Shown here piece by piece: positions 2,288 through 18,214 of a DNA stretch of 21,940 nt. Source of the stretch: a virus; IMG/VR virus record IMGVR_UViG_3300043137_000006, positions 1-21,940 of that record; one strand, given 5' to 3'. A model generated the notes under the pieces. The model did no database searches, was not told the DNA's origin, and saw only the letters and a program-made list of their open reading frames with translations. A program made the translations under genes and the position numbers. How positions within the stretch are numbered: position 1 is the first letter of the stretch; every line of letters starts with the position of its first letter.

Positions 2288-2611
2288 CTACGCAATATCG
2301 TCAACAATTTGAACGCTGATGTAGCTATCATTGGGGAAAGTCTCGATTGTCGCATCTGCATATGTGACCTGAAATTCGGCCTGATATGTCCCCACAGTTG
2401 CAGTGTCACCAGCGGCCCACGAATATCGCACAATGCCAGATGCTGCTGTCACAATGGTTGCCGCCGCGCTGACAACAGAAGCTGAGCCATTTACTGTTCG
2501 CATATGAAACCGAACCGATGCGCCTGTTAGGTCAATTGCTGTTCCACTTGCGTTTTGCAAAGTCGCCAACATCGCTGGGCTAGTATCATTTTGCTTGATG
2601 TAGAATGTCAT
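2288..2611 (-). CDS. BppU-like N-terminal-domain virion protein
   Basis: A 107-residue, beta-rich protein starting MTFYIKQNDTSP. The pattern 'ND..P.....L....G..IDLTGASVRFHM' followed by 'G.VRYSWAAGDTATVGTYQAEFQVTY' and a short C-terminal strand resembles the immunoglobulin-like N-terminal domain of phage baseplate upper proteins (BppU family). In marine phages this domain is often found as a stand-alone protein beside fibre genes. It is likely a virion accessory or fibre-connector protein. Its ATG overlaps the stop of the 616-aa adhesin gene by one base (TAATG) with GAGG seven bases upstream, so the two are probably made in coupled amounts and may work together. Confidence 0.65.
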   Translation of the reverse strand: MTFYIKQNDTSPAMLATLQNASGTAIDLTGASVRFHMRTVNGSASVVSAAATIVTAASGIVRYSWAAGDTATVGTYQAEFQVTYADATIETFPNDSYISVQIVDDIA

Positions 2612-4461
2612 TAAGCGGCCTCATTAGATGTTGCGACAATAATGCCGTTTGGTGTGTTCTCAGAGAGAATACTATAATTTGGATTGCCTGTCACGGAGAC
2701 AACTATATTTGGCGCATTTGATGCAATCACACTGGCATTAGACCCATCAACTGTAACAGCCACGCTGTTGGATGCTTGCGATACATGAACATCACGGCTG
2801 CGGCTGGCGTTGACGTATAGGTTGCCGATTGTTGGGTTGCCCGTAAGGATAGATACCCCAGCCAGCGTGTGCTTTTGCACGATGACAGGCGAGCCAACAA
2901 CAGGCGAACCAGCCGCGATGGATTGCAGCACCAAGTTGCTGGCTTGTCCCAGCGTTATCGCACCGACAGTTGGCGATCCTGTCTGGATGTTGTTGGCCGT
3001 GATGACGATGGTGATCTGGGCCGTGACAGAACCAACCGATGGCGCACCAGTTGCAATGTTTGCCGCCGTCAGCGTGTTTTGCTCTGAGATGACAGGCGCA
3101 CCAACGATGGGTGCTGCGGTTGCAATGTTGGATGCCGTCAGAACATTTTGCTGAACGATCGCCAGCGACCCGACTGTCGGCGATCCAGTTGTGATGTCGG
3201 CTGCGAATACAGGGGTTGTTGTGGCAGCGGTGGGCGACCCGACAACAGGCGCACCAGTTGCGATGCCTGTAGCGGCCAGCGCATGGCCCTGCGCTATGGT
3301 TGATGCTGCAACAACAGGGTTTCCAGTTGCGATAGATGTCAGGCTGACAACATGGGTCTGCGCAATGCTGGATGCGCTGACAACGGGCGATCCAGTTACG
3401 ATGTTGGATGCGTATATCGGCGTGACCAGCGTCAGGGTAGTCTGATCAACAACAGGCGCCCCAGCGTTCACATCTGTTGGCGCGATGACATGGGTTTGAC
3501 TGATGGATGCGCTGTCAACTACAGGTGCGCCTGTGGTGATGTCGGATGCTGTTAGGCTAATTGCACCTGACGGCACATAACGGATAACAATCAGGCCGTT
3601 AGCGCCAGCACCAGAAGTAATAGATGTTGCAACGCCGCGATTGTTTATACCACCGCCACCGCCACCATAGCTTCCGCCAGAATAACCTACATACGTTCCA
3701 GCATTGTTGACGGTTCTATACCCACCGCCACCACCTCCGCTACCGTATGCAGGGGAGGATGAAAATTCAAATCCATTGCCGCCGTTTGTTCCTACAGGAG
3801 AATTGGTTGCACCAGTTCCAGCAACGCCACCAAATCCTGCATCACCTGATCCACCATTTGTGCCACTGTCAGTCCCTCCACTAACGCCATTATTTCCAGC
3901 GCCTCTACAACCACCAGCCCCACCGCCTCCACTAGCAAATGCAATGTTTGCGTTAGATATGGTTTGCGCGCCACCGCTGCCGCCAGCGTATTTTGTGCTA
4001 CCGATTGCACTTGTTATAGATGCACCAGCACCCCCCGCAGCGGTCCCTGAAGTTGCGGCAATACCACCGCCCCCACCATTTGCAGCAACTTGCGATGCCG
4101 CTTGAGTAGTCGCGCCAAAAAACGTAGCCGTTCCATCGTTTCCGTTTGACTGAGCAAGAGTTGTTAATACAACAGCCGCCCCGCCAACACCTACTTGATA
4201 CGACACAGAGCCAAAAAGGCTTACGTTATTAGCCCTTGAATAACCACCACCGCCGCCGCCTGTAGTATATCTGGCACTAACAAGGTTTATGTTAGCACCA
4301 GAGCCACCAGCGCCGATAACTTCAATGCTGTTTAGGCTGTTGTTCCAATCATTTGGAACTGTCCAAGACGTTCCAGATGTTAGGAATACTGTAACGACAT
4401 TTGGATCAAGTCCCACATCATCCGCTTGTGGGGCAGCGGCTAATGGGAATGAGCCAAGCAT
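2611..4461 (-). CDS. Glycine-rich, repeat-bearing putative tail adhesin
   Basis: A 616-residue protein in three parts. Residues 1-49 are a short non-repetitive start containing a TVFLTSGTSWTVP motif like that seen before glycine-rich domains in phage and bacterial surface proteins. Residues about 50-292 form a very glycine-rich domain with many runs of 4-6 Gly, resembling the polyglycine sandwich modules of phage adhesins such as gp38 of T2-like phages (by composition only). Residues 303-555 are eleven consecutive 23-residue repeats with consensus roughly LTASNIATGAPVVGSPxIxQ plus three residues. Residues 556-616 are a Val/Asn/Ser-rich tail. There is no signal peptide. The likely role is a fibre or receptor-binding protein on the virion. 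GGAG lies before the ATG. The single Cys is at position 185. Confidence 0.75.
   Translation of the reverse strand: MLGSFPLAAAPQADDVGLDPNVVTVFLTSGTSWTVPNDWNNSLNSIEVIGAGGSGANINLVSARYTTGGGGGGYSRANNVSLFGSVSYQVGVGGAAVVLTTLAQSNGNDGTATFFGATTQAASQVAANGGGGGIAATSGTAAGGAGASITSAIGSTKYAGGSGGAQTISNANIAFASGGGGAGGCRGAGNNGVSGGTDSGTNGGSGDAGFGGVAGTGATNSPVGTNGGNGFEFSSSPAYGSGGGGGGYRTVNNAGTYVGYSGGSYGGGGGGINNRGVATSITSGAGANGLIVIRYVPSGAISLTASDITTGAPVVDSASISQTHVIAPTDVNAGAPVVDQTTLTLVTPIYASNIVTGSPVVSASSIAQTHVVSLTSIATGNPVVAASTIAQGHALAATGIATGAPVVGSPTAATTTPVFAADITTGSPTVGSLAIVQQNVLTASNIATAAPIVGAPVISEQNTLTAANIATGAPSVGSVTAQITIVITANNIQTGSPTVGAITLGQASNLVLQSIAAGSPVVGSPVIVQKHTLAGVSILTGNPTIGNLYVNASRSRDVHVSQASNSVAVTVDGSNASVIASNAPNIVVSVTGNPNYSILSENTPNGIIVATSNEAA
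2797..3555 (-). repeat. Eleven tandem 69-bp coding units (23-residue protein repeats)
   Basis: Within the 616-aa adhesin gene, the motif [TA]-[GA]-x-P recurs with its Gly/Ala at residues 311, 334, 357, 380, 403, 426, 449, 472, 495, 518 and 541, always exactly 23 apart, giving eleven units with no insertion or deletion. The units differ at many positions and at the DNA level, so the array is old and kept at fixed length by selection, not a fresh expansion. Each unit has the pattern hydrophobic-x-A-x-x-I-x-T-G-x-P-x-V, which would suit one turn or layer of a regular beta fibre. The final unit (LAGVSILTGNPTIG...) is the most diverged. Confidence 0.9.
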
Positions 4462-13140: not shown

Positions 13141-13514
13141 TCGACTAGGTCTTGGTCCTCCGTGGTCTTTTTTTTTGACGCTTCATCTAAAGCATCAGGC
13201 ATAAAGGCCACGCCGACCACCGCTTGGGCGATCTGATACAAACGCAAAAGATCAGCAGGAGTTGCCGCCGCAATCACCTTATCGGCTTCTGCGTCTTTCA
13301 TCCCGCCGCCGACCAGAGCCAGCGCCAAGATGTCACGGGTTTCTTTGCTGTTTAGCTTTGTGCCACGACCAAACAAGCCATCCCACACATCAAAGATGCC
13401 GCGATGCTTATCTTCAAACCGCTCAATCTCACGATTGCGTAGTAGGAAAACATATGAGGTGTCGCCGATATACTCGACGACACCCCCACGCGGCGCTTCA
13501 GCCGTGATGCTCAT
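13137..13514 (-). CDS. Tail assembly chaperone (gpG-like; GTA TAC-like)
   Basis: A 125-residue protein between the major tail and tape measure genes, the fixed place of tail assembly chaperones. The sequence MSITAEAPRGGVVEYIGDTS, then LLRNREIERFEDKHRGIFDVWDGLFGRG and a helical ILALALVGGGMKDAEADKVI, resembles the gene-transfer-agent family of tail chaperones, in which an early beta region is followed by helices. It would coat the tape measure during tail building and be absent from the virion. The C-terminus (SKKKTTEDQDLVD) is encoded over an A9 run suited to -1 frameshifting into the next frame. The ATG overlaps the major tail stop by one base (TGATG). Confidence 0.75.
   Translation of the reverse strand: MSITAEAPRGGVVEYIGDTSYVFLLRNREIERFEDKHRGIFDVWDGLFGRGTKLNSKETRDILALALVGGGMKDAEADKVIAAATPADLLRLYQIAQAVVGVAFMPDALDEASKKKTTEDQDLVD
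13167..13176 (-). other. Programmed -1 ribosomal frameshift site (A9-G slippery run)
   Basis: Read on the minus strand, codons 113-116 of the chaperone gene are TCA AAA AAA AAG. This contains, in the correct phase, the heptamers A_AAA_AAA and A_AAA_AAG; the latter is the classic efficient bacterial -1 site, as in dnaX. After the slip the next codons are GAC CAC GGA GGA CCA and the frame stays open into the 12946-13140 frame. A GGAGG lies six bases 3' of the run (13157-13161). I see no strong stem-loop immediately downstream by eye. The A9 run could also cause transcriptional slippage. Confidence 0.78.
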
Positions 13515-13939
13515 CAGATCGTCGTAAACGTAACAGCGCCAGTGCTTGTCAGCGACAGCGAGTAGGTTACGCCGCCTTCAGTCTCGCCGCCAAACTCCAG
13601 CGACTCGATGTAGAACGAGCCAGCATAAGTGCCGAATGCAGGAATAGTCACAGTGAAGTTGCACTTAGGGTCTGCTTGCATTGCGACAGTGTTCATCCGC
13701 AGTTCGGTGGTGCTATCTTCAAAATAGCCGTCACCAGATATGGTCACATTTTTTACGCCGTTCAGGCTTTCCGTCCACAGCGCACCAGATGGGGTGGTGC
13801 AATCAGGCGTGGTCACATCAATCATCGAATTGTTGATGGTGATTGCCTTGCTGTTCAGACCGCAGAGGTTTGCGAAGACTTCAGTCGATGCGCCATCGCC
13901 GATTTTGACAAGCAGGGCGCGTCCAAGTTGTTTAGCCAT
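13514..13939 (-). CDS. Major tail (tube) protein, TP901-1-like
   Basis: A 141-residue protein; the start MAKQLGRALLVKIGDG is chosen because GGAGG lies five bases before the ATG at 13937-13939. It is beta-rich with the pattern of siphovirus tube proteins of the TP901-1 type: NSKAITINNSMIDVTTPDC near residues 29-47, a KNVTISGDGYFEDS strand pair, and the C-terminal FYIESLEFGGETEGGVTYSLSLTSTGAVTFT. Hexamers of this protein stack to build the tail tube around the tape measure. Its position between the tail terminator and the chaperone genes agrees. A hairpin leader precedes it that is shared in part with the major capsid gene, as expected for a high-copy product. Confidence 0.88.
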   Translation of the reverse strand: MAKQLGRALLVKIGDGASTEVFANLCGLNSKAITINNSMIDVTTPDCTTPSGALWTESLNGVKNVTISGDGYFEDSTTELRMNTVAMQADPKCNFTVTIPAFGTYAGSFYIESLEFGGETEGGVTYSLSLTSTGAVTFTTI

Positions 13940-13956
13940 GATGGCCTCCATGTATA

Positions 13957-13973
13957 GGGCTTGCCCAAGGCCC
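13957..13973 (-). promoter_or_regulatory. Leader hairpin upstream of the major tail protein gene
   Basis: On the minus strand GGGCCTTGGGCAAGCCC can fold as GGG-CTT paired with AAG-CCC, with one bulged C and a GGGC loop. It ends 17 bases before the ATG and is followed by the strong site GGAGGCCATC. No T-run follows, so it is not a standard terminator. The core CCTTGGGCAAG and the GGAGGCCAT context are also found before the major capsid gene, with base-paired flanks that differ in sequence. Confidence 0.5.
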
Positions 13974-13983
13974 GTTGCTAGGC

Positions 13984-14394
13984 TTACTCAAGCAGTGCTT
14001 GAAGTGCAATTACAGCCGTATACCCACGACCATCAGGGTCTCTTGTAACCGAATACGTCTGGAAAATCAATTCGACCAGCGTAAAGCCAGTGACAGTGAC
14101 GCTTCCTTCCTGCCGATGCAGAGCTGCGCGAACAGCCTCAACCATTTGCACAGCTTCAACCCGACCCGATGCCGATCGGCTGTTGGCCTCAATGGTGATG
14201 TCCACAGCCGATCCAGCCGTGCTGTCTGTGTCAAACGCATTTGCCGTGATTTGGTCAAAACGTAGATATGGAAACACCACGTTTTGCGGTGGTTCGTCAT
14301 AGATGCGTGTGGAAACAATCGCAGAAACATCAGCATTTGCCACAAGCGTGGTTCGCAGACCCTTTTGGATTGCAAGCGCAAAGCCGTCAGCCAT
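13984..14394 (-). CDS. Tail terminator / tail completion protein (DUF3168-like)
   Basis: A 136-residue protein with the DUF3168 pattern: a helical start (MADGFALAIQKGLRTTLVAN), ADVSAIVSTRIYDEPPQNVVFPYLRFDQI at about 22-50, and a later region VQMVEAVRAALH followed by LVELIFQTYSVTRDPDGRGYTAVIAL. This family forms the hexameric ring that ends the tail tube and docks to the head. Gene order (gp10-like, DUF3168, major tail protein) is the classic HK97-type arrangement. AAGGA lies about eight bases before the ATG, and the start overlaps the preceding stop by 8 bases. Confidence 0.85.
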   Translation of the reverse strand: MADGFALAIQKGLRTTLVANADVSAIVSTRIYDEPPQNVVFPYLRFDQITANAFDTDSTAGSAVDITIEANSRSASGRVEAVQMVEAVRAALHRQEGSVTVTGFTLVELIFQTYSVTRDPDGRGYTAVIALQALLE

Positions 14395-14776
14395 TTGTCG
14401 CTTCCTTCATTCCGCGATTTACAGCCGATTTGATGCTTTTGGCAAATTTCTTGCCTTGCAGCTTTTGAGCAATGCGAATGTAAGGCTGGGCCGCAGTTGT
14501 GCCGCGATTTCCCTTTTTACGGCCAAATTCCACGGCATATGCCTTGGTTTGCGCTTCCTTTGTCGGCGGCGCAGCTTCAACAGATGCTGTCAATCCATCT
14601 GCTTCATAAACAGTGTGTATCCACCCGCGCAGTTCGCCAGATTTGGTAGGAACCAAACGCCGCGCCATGTTTGCGGCCTGTTCAGTGTTCAGTCGAACAG
14701 ACTTTACCAAATTGCGTTCAACAGCCTTTGGCATTGATTGCATCTGCTTGATCAGTTTTGAAGCATCGACCTTCAT
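14387..14776 (-). CDS. HK97 gp10-like head-tail joining protein
   Basis: A 129-residue basic protein with the HK97 gp10 pattern: a helical start (MKVDASKLIKQMQSMPKAVE), then ARRLVPTKSGELRGWIHTVYE (39-59), and YAVEFGRKKGNRGTTAAQPYIRIA, which is the family's conserved middle ('EfG...g..pa.Pf.rpA'). It acts in connecting tail to head in long-tailed phages. Its ATG overlaps the previous stop by 4 bases (ATGA), suggesting it is translated with the head-tail adaptor. Length is near the family norm. Confidence 0.85.
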   Translation of the reverse strand: MKVDASKLIKQMQSMPKAVERNLVKSVRLNTEQAANMARRLVPTKSGELRGWIHTVYEADGLTASVEAAPPTKEAQTKAYAVEFGRKKGNRGTTAAQPYIRIAQKLQGKKFAKSIKSAVNRGMKEATNG

Positions 14777-15111
14777 GTCGCCACCCCACGCTCAAGCAGG
14801 AACTCAACAACGACATCTTTCGCATCAATGTGCGTCACGTTTTTGATAGCCCAAGTGTAGCCACGGATGACAACACGATCCGCCGCCGTGATTGTGTCGG
14901 TGAAGCTGTCAGCCCGGCAGCGCATGGTTGCCATTGCAACATCGCTCAAAGCGCCGCCTTGTATAGCCTCACGGCCCGTTCTTTCGCGCATATCAGCCCA
15001 GCGCACACCAGCGTTTGACCAACCAGTGTAGACGTTGCCATAAGCATCAATCGCGCCTTGATTGAGGCGCTGGAATGTCGCTCTTTCGCTGAATGCGCCA
15101 GCTCTAGCCAT
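14773..15111 (-). CDS. Head-tail adaptor / head closure protein (SPP1 gp16-like)
   Basis: A 112-residue protein of the head-tail joining type: an early ERATFQRLNQGAIDAYGNVYTGW (about 9-31), then WADMRERTGREAIQGGAL, and a beta part with ITAADRVVIRGYTWAIKNVTHID. This family seals the filled head and presents the surface to which the tail binds. I chose the ATG at 15109-15111, which overlaps the connector gene's end by 8 bases; a TTG at 15129 would add six residues. The gene ends in an ATGA overlap with the gp10-like gene. Confidence 0.82.
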   Translation of the reverse strand: MARAGAFSERATFQRLNQGAIDAYGNVYTGWSNAGVRWADMRERTGREAIQGGALSDVAMATMRCRADSFTDTITAADRVVIRGYTWAIKNVTHIDAKDVVVEFLLERGVAT

Positions 15112-15697
15112 ACCACTGGTTCCGCTCAATGCCGATCATTTCACTGAAACCATAGGGCAGATCATACATCTGCTTTTCGGTCGCCGTTTCGCGCATATCA
15201 TACCAGTGCGCCACCAGCATCATCAGGGCATGGCGAACAGTCTCAGGAACGCTGGTAGAAGAAGATCCATAGCCGATGATGTATTCAATCTTGATGGCGT
15301 CATCACGCATTTGCGTGACAGGCCAAGCCCTGCCAGCTTTTGGCGAAACACTGATGCGGTTTGGCGTTCCAAACACGTTGAAATCGGCCAGCGTGGCGGT
15401 CTGCAATGCGCCATCAACATCATAATACTTGATTGCAGAGACAGACTGCACAGGCCCAAGCGACAAATATACAGTGCCGGGGTTTGGTGAGAGCCATTGC
15501 CCCCAAGTCTGCGTTATCATTGCCTTGCCCAGCGCACCTTGTGCATCCACAAATGCCACCGCAGAAGCAATTAACCGCTGAATGATTGCGTCATCGTCGC
15601 TGCTTTCAACGCGCATTTGTGCCTTCGCCTCCGCCAATGAAATCGGCGTGACGGCTGGGCCTGTAACCTGCACAAGTGAAAACTGCGGCGAGAGCAT
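15104..15697 (-). CDS. Head-tail connector protein (phiE125 gp8 / HK97 gp6-like)
   Basis: A 197-residue protein with the pattern of the phiE125 gp8 family: the start SLVQVTGPAVTPISLAEAKA, MRVESSDDDAIIQRLIASAV (28-47), the TWGQWL motif (about 64-69), SAIKYYDVDG, and a helical end PETVRHALMMLVAHWYDMRE. Twelve copies of this type form a ring beneath the portal, the first link between head and tail. The start has AAGGA six bases upstream and comes two bases after the preceding stop. Full family length. Confidence 0.88.
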   Translation of the reverse strand: MLSPQFSLVQVTGPAVTPISLAEAKAQMRVESSDDDAIIQRLIASAVAFVDAQGALGKAMITQTWGQWLSPNPGTVYLSLGPVQSVSAIKYYDVDGALQTATLADFNVFGTPNRISVSPKAGRAWPVTQMRDDAIKIEYIIGYGSSSTSVPETVRHALMMLVAHWYDMRETATEKQMYDLPYGFSEMIGIERNQWYG

Positions 15698-15699
15698 GA

Positions 15700-15888
15700 T
15701 TATTCCTTCACGGCTTTTTCGACCGCAACCTTTTTGACGGCGCGTTCAATCGGAGCCGATTCAACATTTTCTGCTATGCCAGCTTCGACGTAACGCAATG
15801 CCACTGCATCGGTGACATCAATAATCGAACCTTGCTCATGCACAAAATCAGCACCAGCCATCGAAGTGAGCAAACGAACTTTAGCCAT
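15700..15888 (-). CDS. Small conserved head-region protein
   Basis: A 62-residue protein, MAKVRLLTSMAGADFVHEQG..., with a short beta domain ('VRLL.SMAG......G..IDV.DA.A.R..EAGIAE') followed by a charged Val/Lys/Glu tail (ERAVKKVAVEKAVKE). I recall this pattern in small unnamed phage proteins coded between the major capsid and the connector, possibly SH3-like. It might be a head accessory or assembly protein; the function is not known. It has a strong GGGGG site five bases before the ATG in the same GGCCATCATGGCT context as the major tail gene, preceded by a hairpin. Confidence 0.7.
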   Translation of the reverse strand: MAKVRLLTSMAGADFVHEQGSIIDVTDAVALRYVEAGIAENVESAPIERAVKKVAVEKAVKE

Positions 15889-15910
15889 GATGGCCCCCTA
15901 TGGTGATGGT

Positions 15911-15932
15911 GGGCAGGACCAAAGCCCTGCCC
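15911..15932 (-). promoter_or_regulatory. Hairpin between the major capsid and 62-aa genes
   Basis: GGGCAGG and CCTGCCC form a perfect 7-bp stem (8 bp with an inner G-U pair) and a loop with CTTTGG, in the 54-base gap between the capsid stop and the 62-aa gene's ATG. It ends 22 bases before that ATG. It is the strongest hairpin I see in the window. No T-run follows on the minus strand, so it is more likely a leader, a processing site or a 3' stabiliser for the capsid message than a full terminator; partial termination cannot be excluded. Confidence 0.6.
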
Positions 15933-15942
15933 ATTTGGTTTA

Positions 15943-17196
15943 TTAGGATGCAGCGTTCTTCAGGTGCTTGATAGCGGCGGTGTTAGCCAACACGCCATCA
16001 AAGCGGACGTAGCCCAAGATGCCGTAGTCGGGAGCAAAACGCTCACGGGCCACGAACAAGGTGGGTGCGCCAACTTTACGCACATAGAACTTGGACATAT
16101 CGCCGAACAGCATGACCTTGTTGGTAGCACCCAACGAAGCCATTGCTTGGTTCACAACGACATTGTAGCCCAAGATGTTCTGCGGAACAGCGGCCTGATA
16201 GTTGCCCATCTGCCAAAGGTAGTTGCCCTGACCATCTTTCAGCTTACGAACAGCAGCCAACGTGCTGTCGTTCATCATAATCGCGGTCGAAGGCGAGGAA
16301 CGATAAGCGGGATCAACAGAGTGGATCAAGTCAATGATTTCGTCTGCGGTGATGGCAGCAACAGCAGCAGCAGTTTTGCCAGCGGTCGAATTGGTAACGA
16401 TACCCTCGACATCCGACGAACCAGAACCAGTGGTCAGCTTGGAGTTCGCAATGCGACCCAGACGCTCACCAAGCAGTTCACCAAGCAGCGATTCCATATT
16501 CAGGATGGAGTCGTTTGCAAGTTCGTAGGACCAACGAACCCATTCAGTGTCAAACGCATATGCGCCCAACGAAGCCTGACCAAAGGTCACATCAGAACCG
16601 CCATCGTCAGTGACAGTGCCGCCTTCTGTATGTGCAACAGCGACAGAAGCCGTGTCGTTTACAGTCGGAATGTTGAACGTGTTGCCGCCAGTGGTGTTGA
16701 TCACAGTGAACAGGTTCGAATCATACATCGGGCCAGAAGCAATCATTGCTTTTTCGATGAATGCAGCCAGTTCCGTGGGGACAGTGTAGCCACCAGCAGT
16801 GTTTGTGCCAGCAGTTTGTGTGCGAACTTCAGCATTACGCAAAACGGCGCGATGCTCATTGTCCAGACCATCAACACCGCCATTGGCGATCATGGCGAAG
16901 AACGCGGTGCGATAGTCAACTTTTGCGCCGTCATCAACAGCGGCAACAGAGGTGCGCTCTGCAACAGGACGCTTCGACAGGTCGATGCCTTGTGCAGCGC
17001 GAACAGCAGCGTCCACTTTTTCCATGCGCTTTGCCACGCCGTCAAGGCGGTCGTGTTCAGCCATCATGGCATCAAATTCGCGCTCGATTTCAGCGGCGCG
17101 GGCTTCGTTTGTCTTGTCCGTAGCTTCGGCAAGTTTAGAACGGGCCTCGGTGGCGATACGCGCCATTTGCTCCCGCAGGGTCTTTAGATCAGCCAT
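15943..17196 (-). CDS. Major capsid protein, HK97 fold
   Basis: A 417-residue HK97-type capsid protein. Residues 1-about 70 are a highly charged helical, coiled-coil delta domain (EARAAEIEREFDAMMAEHDR) that acts as internal scaffold and is expected to be removed by the phage protease, probably near residues 115-130. The mature part starts around AEVRTQTAGTNTAGGYTVP (122-140), continues with the E-loop region, SLGAYAFDTEWVRWSYELAN, and ends with NVVVNQAMASLG...LFGDMSKFYVRKVG and LGYVRFDGVL, the conserved P- and A-domain parts. AGGAGG lies five bases before the ATG. A hairpin leader precedes it. Codon use is even and strongly biased, giving a long spurious frame on the other strand. Confidence 0.95.
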   Translation of the reverse strand: MADLKTLREQMARIATEARSKLAEATDKTNEARAAEIEREFDAMMAEHDRLDGVAKRMEKVDAAVRAAQGIDLSKRPVAERTSVAAVDDGAKVDYRTAFFAMIANGGVDGLDNEHRAVLRNAEVRTQTAGTNTAGGYTVPTELAAFIEKAMIASGPMYDSNLFTVINTTGGNTFNIPTVNDTASVAVAHTEGGTVTDDGGSDVTFGQASLGAYAFDTEWVRWSYELANDSILNMESLLGELLGERLGRIANSKLTTGSGSSDVEGIVTNSTAGKTAAAVAAITADEIIDLIHSVDPAYRSSPSTAIMMNDSTLAAVRKLKDGQGNYLWQMGNYQAAVPQNILGYNVVVNQAMASLGATNKVMLFGDMSKFYVRKVGAPTLFVARERFAPDYGILGYVRFDGVLANTAAIKHLKNAAS

Positions 17197-17214
17197 TATG
17201 GCCTCCTACAATGT

Positions 17215-17229
17215 GCCTTGCCCAAGGGC
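17215..17229 (-). promoter_or_regulatory. Leader hairpin upstream of the major capsid gene
   Basis: On the minus strand GCCCTTGGGCAAGGC can fold as GCC-TT paired with AA-GGC with a bulged C and GGGC loop, 18 bases before the ATG and just 5' of the AGGAGG site. An alternative, longer-loop fold pairs GCCCAA with TTGGGC across 17220-17241. The core CCTTGGGCAAG and the downstream GGAGGCCAT are shared with the major tail gene leader. The gap 17197-17260 holds no gene. Confidence 0.5.
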
Positions 17230-17260
17230 TGGGGATTGGGCCAACAGCGGGAGTCCGCCG

Positions 17261-18214
17261 TTATTCGTCAGCCACGAAGTCTTTGCGTTCCCATGCTTGG
17301 CAAACGCGCAGATTGTGACAAATGAAATCCAGTTTTTCGCACCAGCCGCGACCACCGCCGTCCATATCAAATGGCGTCAGTGGGATGTCCTCCATTGACT
17401 TCAACATTTCTGGCGTATTGTTGAAATAAGAACAGTTGGCGCAGAGTTGACGGCGGGCTTCGGCTTCGTTGATGCTCCAAACATCAGCCATTTTTGCCCA
17501 GTATTCTGGGTTTGCGGCTGGATCAGACGAAGCAACTTCAGGCCCAAGGTTCCAGTTTTCAACAGCGTTCTGCATATTGATTGCATTGATGCTGCCAGAA
17601 ACGATTTCGGGCTGCTCAACTTCTGGCAAAAGATACTCATTGCGCAGATCAATGCCAGCGGCTTTGGCTTTCATACGCATGCGGCGTACAGCTTGCGATT
17701 TGATCTGTTCCTCGCGGTGCTTTTCCAGCGACCGCAAAGCAATTTCAGTGCCATCGTAAGCAGGAGTGGTTACGATGCTGACATCGAACAATTGCGCTTC
17801 TTCAATCATGCGCTTTGGCATTTTTGCGCTGTCATCCCATTTCTGACGCACAGGACGAAACGCAAATGACATCTTGTCCAGATCGCCGCGCTTCATTTTC
17901 GGCACAATGCTGCGAACATCAGGGTCAGTCTGGTCAAGCATGGCTTCCATATACAGCCCACGTTCATCTTCAACCAATGTCAGAGTGCCAGAACGAGTAC
18001 GGGCCAGCGGCAGACCTTCATGGTTGATCAGGAAAACAACATCATCCCGACCGATTGCGTTCTTAAAAGCGCCGCGAACAATCACCTCGGTGAACATTCC
18101 ACCGATATTTGTTTCTTCGCCAAACACAGCGGCATAGCCAGCAACGCGGATTTCGCCATCATCGCCTTCGCGGATTTCCACAGGAACACCACGGCGGATT
18201 TCTTTTTCAGACAT
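17261..18214 (-). CDS. Prohead protease (HK97 U35/S78 type) with Cys-rich C-terminal domain
   Basis: A 317-residue protein. The start at 18212-18214 (MSEKEIRRGVPVEI...) follows a GGGG six bases upstream; a frame upstream would run into the portal gene. Residues 1-165 are the maturation protease domain, with RVAGYAAVFGEETN, the catalytic His65 in LINHEG, and Ser116 in DKMSFAF; VTTPAYDGTEI closes the domain. It cuts the capsid delta domain during head maturation. Residues about 165-317 are an extra domain: a basic helix (RRMRMKAKAAG), YWAKMADVWSINEAEARR, then Cys258, 261, 292, 299 and 305 with His300 (CANC, WCEKLDFICHNLRVC). HK97 protease lacks such a tail; I recall similar C-terminal parts in some marine phage proteins. 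Confidence 0.88.
   Translation of the reverse strand: MSEKEIRRGVPVEIREGDDGEIRVAGYAAVFGEETNIGGMFTEVIVRGAFKNAIGRDDVVFLINHEGLPLARTRSGTLTLVEDERGLYMEAMLDQTDPDVRSIVPKMKRGDLDKMSFAFRPVRQKWDDSAKMPKRMIEEAQLFDVSIVTTPAYDGTEIALRSLEKHREEQIKSQAVRRMRMKAKAAGIDLRNEYLLPEVEQPEIVSGSINAINMQNAVENWNLGPEVASSDPAANPEYWAKMADVWSINEAEARRQLCANCSYFNNTPEMLKSMEDIPLTPFDMDGGGRGWCEKLDFICHNLRVCQAWERKDFVADE

Follow-up and report, generated by a model that had tools for sequence, protein, structure and literature searches.

Why do a few genes in a compact phage structural operon have leaders of their own, and what do these leaders contain? The question is raised by the window, a 21,940-base fragment of an IMG/VR virus record (IMGVR_UViG_3300043137_000006). 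Its minus strand carries an HK97-type operon of terminase, portal, protease, capsid, 62-amino-acid (62-aa), adaptor, tail terminator and major tail (tail-tube) protein genes. A preliminary description of the locus stated that most of these genes overlap or touch, which is broadly right, although there is an additional 32-nt gap between the terminase and portal genes. The gaps to which it drew attention exist on the minus strand upstream of the capsid gene (17197-17260), the 62-aa gene (15889-15942) and the tail-tube gene (13940-13983), the last provided that translation starts at the conserved ATG at 13939. Programs calling open reading frames (ORFs) choose an upstream ATG at 13951, which overlaps the Shine-Dalgarno (SD) box; the start at 13939 is preferred, since many relatives have ACG at the 13951 position. 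As described, each gap closes with an SD box and ATGGCT. The window has exactly two copies of CCTTGGGCAAG, the sequence said to be common to the capsid and tail leaders, one in each of these leaders. The element that they share is well supported, both in fold and in position, as a compact H-type pseudoknot predicted from comparison of related sequences, with two helices, P2 and P3, and a UNGGCAA loop (Table 1).

Structure of the predicted pseudoknot

Relatives were gathered by searches with the capsid and tail proteins, 80 IMG/VR loci each, and they display the pattern much more plainly than the window does by itself. Over all loci, the consensus of 223 distinct elements is GCCN, a linker of 3-13 nt, a 3-4 bp stem (P3) enclosing NN and UNGGCAA, and a strong SD box. 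The leaders of the relatives found with the capsid and tail proteins consist of GCC followed by C or U, 3-13 nt, a stem of 3-4 bp whose strands enclose two unpaired bases and UGGGCAA, then mostly 6-10 nt, GGAGG and the start codon.

The change from GCC/GGC in one stem to GGG/CCC in the other, reported at the outset as preserving the pairing, is real, and in relatives it extends to all pair types. The versions of P3 seen are GCC/GGC, GCGC/GCGC, GGGC/GCCC, GCAC/GTGC, GTGC/GCAC, CAGC/GCUG, GUC/GAC and GACC/GGUC. In an alignment of 40 sequences, both of the inner P3 pairs that vary do so among CG, GC, AU and UA, and none is broken. Stem pairing in relatives, on which the preliminary description staked its proposal, is conserved: the covariation score of P3 in this alignment is 0.578, which none of 500 shuffles equals, while slid versions score about 0.10 or less.

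The helix overlooked at the outset is P2, in which the loop NGGC pairs with the complementary upstream GCCN (3-4 bp); in the window, GGGC pairs with GCCC or GCCU located 6-8 nt upstream of the stem. The order a-b-a'-b' of an H-type pseudoknot, GCCN...P3a...NGGC...P3b, is found in 108/108 distinct elements, and in all 108 GCC stands 3-13 nt upstream of P3, against about 34% expected in shuffled flanks. The three inner pairs of P2 never vary and therefore provide no covariation evidence. At the fourth pair, among the 223 distinct elements, a loop G faces an upstream C or U in 116/116 cases, and a loop C most often faces G (37/80). Fourth pairs are formed in 157 cases out of 202; 2000 shuffles gave 105.6 on average and never more than 126. 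The observed fourth pairs include CG, UG, GC and UA, and thus compensatory change is seen in both helices. In distant phages and prophages of Rhodobacteraceae the loop reads UCGGCAA, and the sequence upstream is mostly GCCG. A double exchange in P2 and P3 separates RHph_TM3_3_3 (GCCG...GCGC-CU-UCGGCAA-GCGC) from the related RHph_N28_2 (GCCU...GCAC-CU-UAGGCAA-GUGC), the one named phage in which the loop AGGC is combined with GCCU. In a gap-free alignment of 33 sequences, 96% of the cells of both helices are paired, versus 77.5% in shuffles and at most 36% in slid versions.

The upstream strand of P2 can also be followed in the codons. In tail leaders the preceding gene usually ends with this GCC as its final sense codon (Ala-stop), and where the last sense codon is alanine it is GCC in 77/77 cases, versus 51/253 (20%) among other nearby alanine codons. 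In 12 leaders, including that of the window, the stop codon precedes GCC, which is thus kept outside the coding sequence. By a hand estimate of energies (a rough sum with a fixed penalty and no pseudoknot program), in 87 of 107 cases the pseudoknot comes out ahead of the best nested alternative.

Of the structure first proposed, therefore, the stem pairing stands, but the simple bulged hairpin is rejected. The short capsid and tail hairpins as drawn are unstable alone and are not the energy minimum of their leaders, as minimum free energy folding picks other pairings (z = -0.99 and +1.35); the leaders themselves show no unusual stability when folded in isolation. Neither the 'bulged C' shape nor the inner TT/AA pairs are conserved, and tail copies vary at those bases.

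Conservation of this kind could in principle reflect a signal at the level of DNA or transcription, that is, a promoter, operator, terminator or antitermination site. This is very unlikely. All four pair types occur, together with wobble pairs that are sensible on this RNA strand only; the spacing is tied to the SD box and AUG, and no T-run follows the stems. The one weak sigma-70-like match over the capsid leader (17224-17195) is no more than shuffles give, and a promoter or terminator was rejected, as there is no excess over shuffles.

Table 1. Leader elements and associated genes in the window
Feature	Position	Strand	Remarks
P1 5' strand AACGGCGG, capsid leader	17255..17262	-	begins with the final two bases of the protease stop TAA
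P1 3' strand CCGCTGTT, capsid leader	17243..17250	-	pairing across distinct capsid leaders
P2 5' strand GCCC, capsid pseudoknot	17238..17241	-	leader comparison
P3 5' strand GCC, capsid	17227..17229	-	covariation
Conserved loop TGGGCAA, capsid	17218..17224	-	GGGC 17220-17223 is the P2 3' strand; AA is the third pseudoknot loop
P3 3' strand GGC, capsid	17215..17217	-	ends 18 nt ahead of the capsid ATG
Shine-Dalgarno box AGGAGG, capsid gene	17202..17207	-	
Major capsid protein gene, 417 aa, HK97 type, phrog_10	15943..17196	-	
Separate hairpin behind the capsid stop, TGGGCAGGGC-TTTG-GTCCTGCCCA, ahead of the 62-aa gene	15910..15933	-	relatives show 47 distinct versions
62-aa gene, start context GGGGGCCATCATGGCT, phrog_25242	15700..15888	-	without the pseudoknot element
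P2 5' strand GCCT, tail pseudoknot	13980..13983	-	directly behind the tail terminator stop TAA
P3 5' strand GGGC, tail	13970..13973	-	covariation
Conserved loop TGGGCAA, tail	13961..13967	-	GGGC 13963-13966 is the P2 3' strand
P3 3' strand GCCC, tail	13957..13960	-	ends 17 nt ahead of the tail ATG
Shine-Dalgarno box GGAGG, tail-tube gene	13945..13949	-	
Major tail (tube) protein gene, conserved start ATGGCTAAACAA, phrog_1407	13514..13939	-	

Genes and phages carrying the element

A covariance model of the stem region identifies two strong copies, upstream of the capsid and tail-tube genes, in most long contigs of the window's clade. A gene-blind pattern search with the GCGC-stem form retrieved further viral contigs, and nearly all copies followed by an open frame precede capsid or tail genes. 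Another gene-blind search used GCCCTTCGGCAAGGC-N10-40-GGAG, which gave 103 stretches, and a GCGC form, which gave 3; of these 106 copies, 94 lie ahead of an open frame of 60 or more codons. Representatives of the downstream genes belong to the capsid families phrog_10, phrog_264 (PF09950) and phrog_1005, the tail-tube or major tail families phrog_1407, phrog_13196, phrog_158, phrog_807, phrog_8234 and phrog_290 (PF18906), and the tail sheath family phrog_23; a few further representatives have no assigned family. A full scan for the pseudoknot, SD box and frame gave 97 hits, versus 4 on reversed sequence. A strong restriction of the predicted element to genes for high-copy virion proteins is evident from these searches. 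The early suggestion of a signal for such proteins is thus strongly supported by the distribution over capsid, tail-tube and sheath genes, with the correction that the 62-aa gene falls outside the set.

Among named phages, the element precedes tail genes in Rhodobacter phage RcapNL, Rhizobium phages RHph_N28_2 and RHph_TM3_3_3, and Pan4 and Mae-JY02 (labelled cyanobacterial). Aurantimonas phage AmM-1 carries it upstream of the sheath gene, and Sinorhizobium phage phiLM21 is a further carrier. BLASTN with leader sequences gave mostly chance matches, Pan4 and Mae-JY02 excepted. The element was not found in RHph_TM3_3_14B and RHph_Y3_1, nor in Acinetobacter 5W and the partly covered Brevundimonas Strzyga. 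A host regulatory element was rejected: the matches in 14 of 397 Rhodobacteraceae genomes, for each of which only 16 candidates were scored, resemble chance matches and have no start sites to fit. In 367 alphaproteobacterial genomes the pattern was matched 4 times, which is near chance; one of these hits (L469) is ahead of a tail-like gene.

Several small riboswitches are small H-type pseudoknots with invariant loop bases upstream of the SD box, and the present element has the same features. It is nevertheless scarcely credible that the element is a riboswitch whose pseudoknot aptamer senses a ligand or an ion. No Rfam riboswitch is matched even at E = 10, no copies were seen ahead of metabolic genes in the loci examined, there is no conserved alternative fold sequestering the SD box, and no ligand is obvious for virion genes.

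The loci of Pan4 and Mae-JY02 (L470, L471) bear a cyanobacterial label, yet they contain a structural module like that of gene transfer agents (GTAs) and a pseudoknot otherwise seen in alphaproteobacterial phages. The host labels may deserve checking.

Possible role in expression

Since the element is restricted to the capsid, tube and sheath, the highest-copy parts of the virion, together with a strong SD box, the pseudoknot leader may well be a cis-acting booster of expression for high-copy virion proteins; the fold is derived from sequence, the function is suggested by the company it keeps. It would raise the yield of the capsid, tube and sheath genes relative to their operon neighbours. 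The likelier route would be translation initiation. In leaders that lack a further hairpin, P4, the distance from the end of P3 to the AUG is mostly 17-19 nt, and the upstream edge of a 30S footprint is expected close to this position. A rigid fold at this edge could keep the SD-AUG segment free and favour independent re-loading of ribosomes after the ribosome of the upstream gene leaves. Translation initiation is placed somewhat ahead of mRNA stability; predicted accessibility of the SD box does not discriminate between the two. A factor acting in trans, if there is one, is more likely to be a host component than a phage protein, because phages with unrelated capsids and tails share the element. 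This points to the host ribosome or RNA-decay machinery, and a phage-encoded ligand seems unlikely.

Several observations weigh against a booster of this kind, or against the strength of its fold. Leaders with P4 place the pseudoknot some 30-45 nt from the SD box, and therefore docking at the ribosome edge cannot be universal. Accessibility of the SD-AUG segment, predicted without the pseudoknot and compared with a shuffled element, is slightly better for capsid leaders (22/27) and not for tail leaders (17/37). Simple insulation of the SD box is thus unsupported, as the gain is weak and occurs in capsid leaders alone. In a considerable share of the UCGG class P2 comprises no more than 3 bp, and the shuffle counts overstate independence because the sequences are related. 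Among distant relatives, the element was not found in Rhizobium 16-3 or Labrenzia V1, where both the leaders and the stem covariance model were considered, nor in the partial records of RDJL Phi 1 and KPP23. It is also absent from about 30 GTA clusters of Rhodobacteraceae (GTA-type tail-gene leaders), so that a gene transfer agent element is rejected.

The C-rich linker was considered as an anti-SD sequence, and this was dropped because the tail copy of the window has AGCAAC.

Hairpin downstream of the capsid gene

The leader of the 62-aa gene was initially taken for a third member of the set. However, a single motif across all three leaders is rejected, as this leader contains a structure of another kind, a long hairpin located in relatives 4-16 nt past the capsid stop, and has no GCCN...UNGGCAA core; only the SD box and start context are shared. 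The 47 distinct versions of the hairpin preserve the pairing, covary and are mostly UUCG-capped. It does not look like an intrinsic terminator: there is no T-run behind the minus-strand stem, the terminator scan lists the site on the plus strand only, and the relatives also lack a T-run. Possibly, this hairpin is the 3' boundary of the capsid message.

Such a boundary would belong to the less likely route for the booster, in which the pseudoknot is the 5' boundary shielding a processed capsid or tail message from decay. Taken as an explanation in its own right, a cut by RNase E upstream, a pseudoknot that halts 5' decay and a post-capsid hairpin that halts 3' decay would make the capsid and tail messages long-lived. 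The conserved hairpin without a T-run fits this explanation. Gene ratios in the Rhodobacter puf operon are set by segmental stability, RNase J is present in R. sphaeroides (PMC6238624), and bacterial RNase J1 is blocked in vitro by compact folded RNAs (PMC5760640). However, the tail-tube gene overlaps its downstream neighbour at the stop and is not followed by a gap with a 3' hairpin, and a nuclease barrier would not need the fixed distance to the start codon seen in the leaders without P4. A stabiliser or a nuclease or processing barrier of this kind is unlikely.

Comparison with known leaders

The gene 32 pseudoknot of T4, T2 and RB69 is similarly of the H-type and is located in a phage mRNA leader, upstream of the ribosome-binding site (RBS) of a highly expressed gene. 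However, it serves one gene, encoding a replication protein, lies 67 nt upstream and gives way to an A+U-rich stretch to which gp32 binds over the RBS (PMC3014915). In unrelated phages the present element precedes genes for capsid, tube and sheath alike, and its forms without P4 mostly end 17-19 nt before the start codon. A 2010 review deems the T4 pseudoknot possibly the sole viral case used in translational autoregulation (PMC3014915). With this precedent, one may imagine a repressor or timing site, where binding of a protein to the pseudoknot and the UNGGCAA loop would reduce translation, in the way gp32 acts at gene 32; the protein could be a virion or assembly protein that accumulates late, or an RNA-binding protein of the host. 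The loop bases U, GGC and AA are indeed conserved strictly, beyond the needs of pairing. On the other hand, a common phage-encoded ligand is unlikely for an element shared by unrelated capsid, tube and sheath families, and the SD box lies outside the structure. The T4 pseudoknot nucleates binding over its A+U-rich RBS, whereas the present leaders have no A+U-rich unstructured repeats over the RBS and run straight into GGAGG(CC). Repression is thus rather improbable; in particular, binding by the downstream product in the manner of gene 32 appears unlikely, given the unrelated downstream proteins.

The leader of T7 gene 10, the major capsid gene, is also devoted to a high-copy capsid gene and, as here, has a structured 5' part followed by a strong SD box. 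We know of no pseudoknot in it and of no sequence relation, and T7-type leaders are, to our knowledge, not common to tail genes. The intercistronic hairpins of the Rhodobacter puf operon are likewise structures between genes that set unequal output in alphaproteobacteria, but they serve host genes and act on decay, and no pseudoknot or UNGGCAA motif has been described in them (PMC6238624).

In Rfam 15 there was no credible match for the leaders of the window at E <= 10, and none at the gathering score in 12 loci carrying the element; no description of it was found in the open-access PMC papers searched. It thus appears to be an undescribed RNA family within a known class, that of structured phage mRNA leaders, and what is unusual is its re-use by non-homologous virion genes. 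Conserved pseudoknot leaders are rare in phage messages. A broader proposal is put forward only tentatively: that this is a widespread family of phage mRNA pseudoknots, independently acquired as a portable module by non-homologous virion genes, which would set virion stoichiometry via the host ribosome or RNA decay. How one operon provides hundreds of capsid and tube subunits and about a dozen portals is poorly explained. If one conserved RNA fold marks the high-copy virion genes of unrelated phages, the question of stoichiometry would become directly testable. Such a fold would also help to spot capsid and tail genes in metagenomes and could serve as a portable expression part for alphaproteobacteria.

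Other features of the leaders and the genome

The capsid leaders of the window's clade open with a hairpin, P1 (17243-17262 in the window, minus strand), whose first bases belong to the protease stop codon. It is kept in 73 of 74 distinct leaders; all its pairs are kept in every distinct version, and the wobble exchanges fit this RNA strand. P1 overlaps the protease stop, and a terminating ribosome would melt it.

In many leaders, upstream of genes from unrelated families, P4 lies between the pseudoknot and the SD box. It is a hairpin with a GNRA-like loop, frequently GUGA or GCGA, and its stem is frequently CGUC/GACG. The stretch formed by P4 (CGUC-GUGA/GCGA-GACG) and the following UUCCC..GAUGGAG is nearly alike in leaders of unrelated capsid and tail genes (L134:1650-1690, L409, L456, L364 and others).

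The capsid leaders of RHph_TM3_3_14B and RHph_Y3_1 (L158, L160) contain a different long inverted repeat, AGGACG...CGTCCTGCC, with inner CCGGC/GCCGG, possibly another structured leader. The same capsid region is found at both ends of a 38-kb contig (L009 and L051, IMGVR_UViG_3300046028_000962), an indication of circular permutation or terminal redundancy of the genome. Finally, near the end of the tail module, the window contains diverged 69-nt repeats (23-codon units) at 2888-3540, within a 616-aa ORF at 2611-4461.

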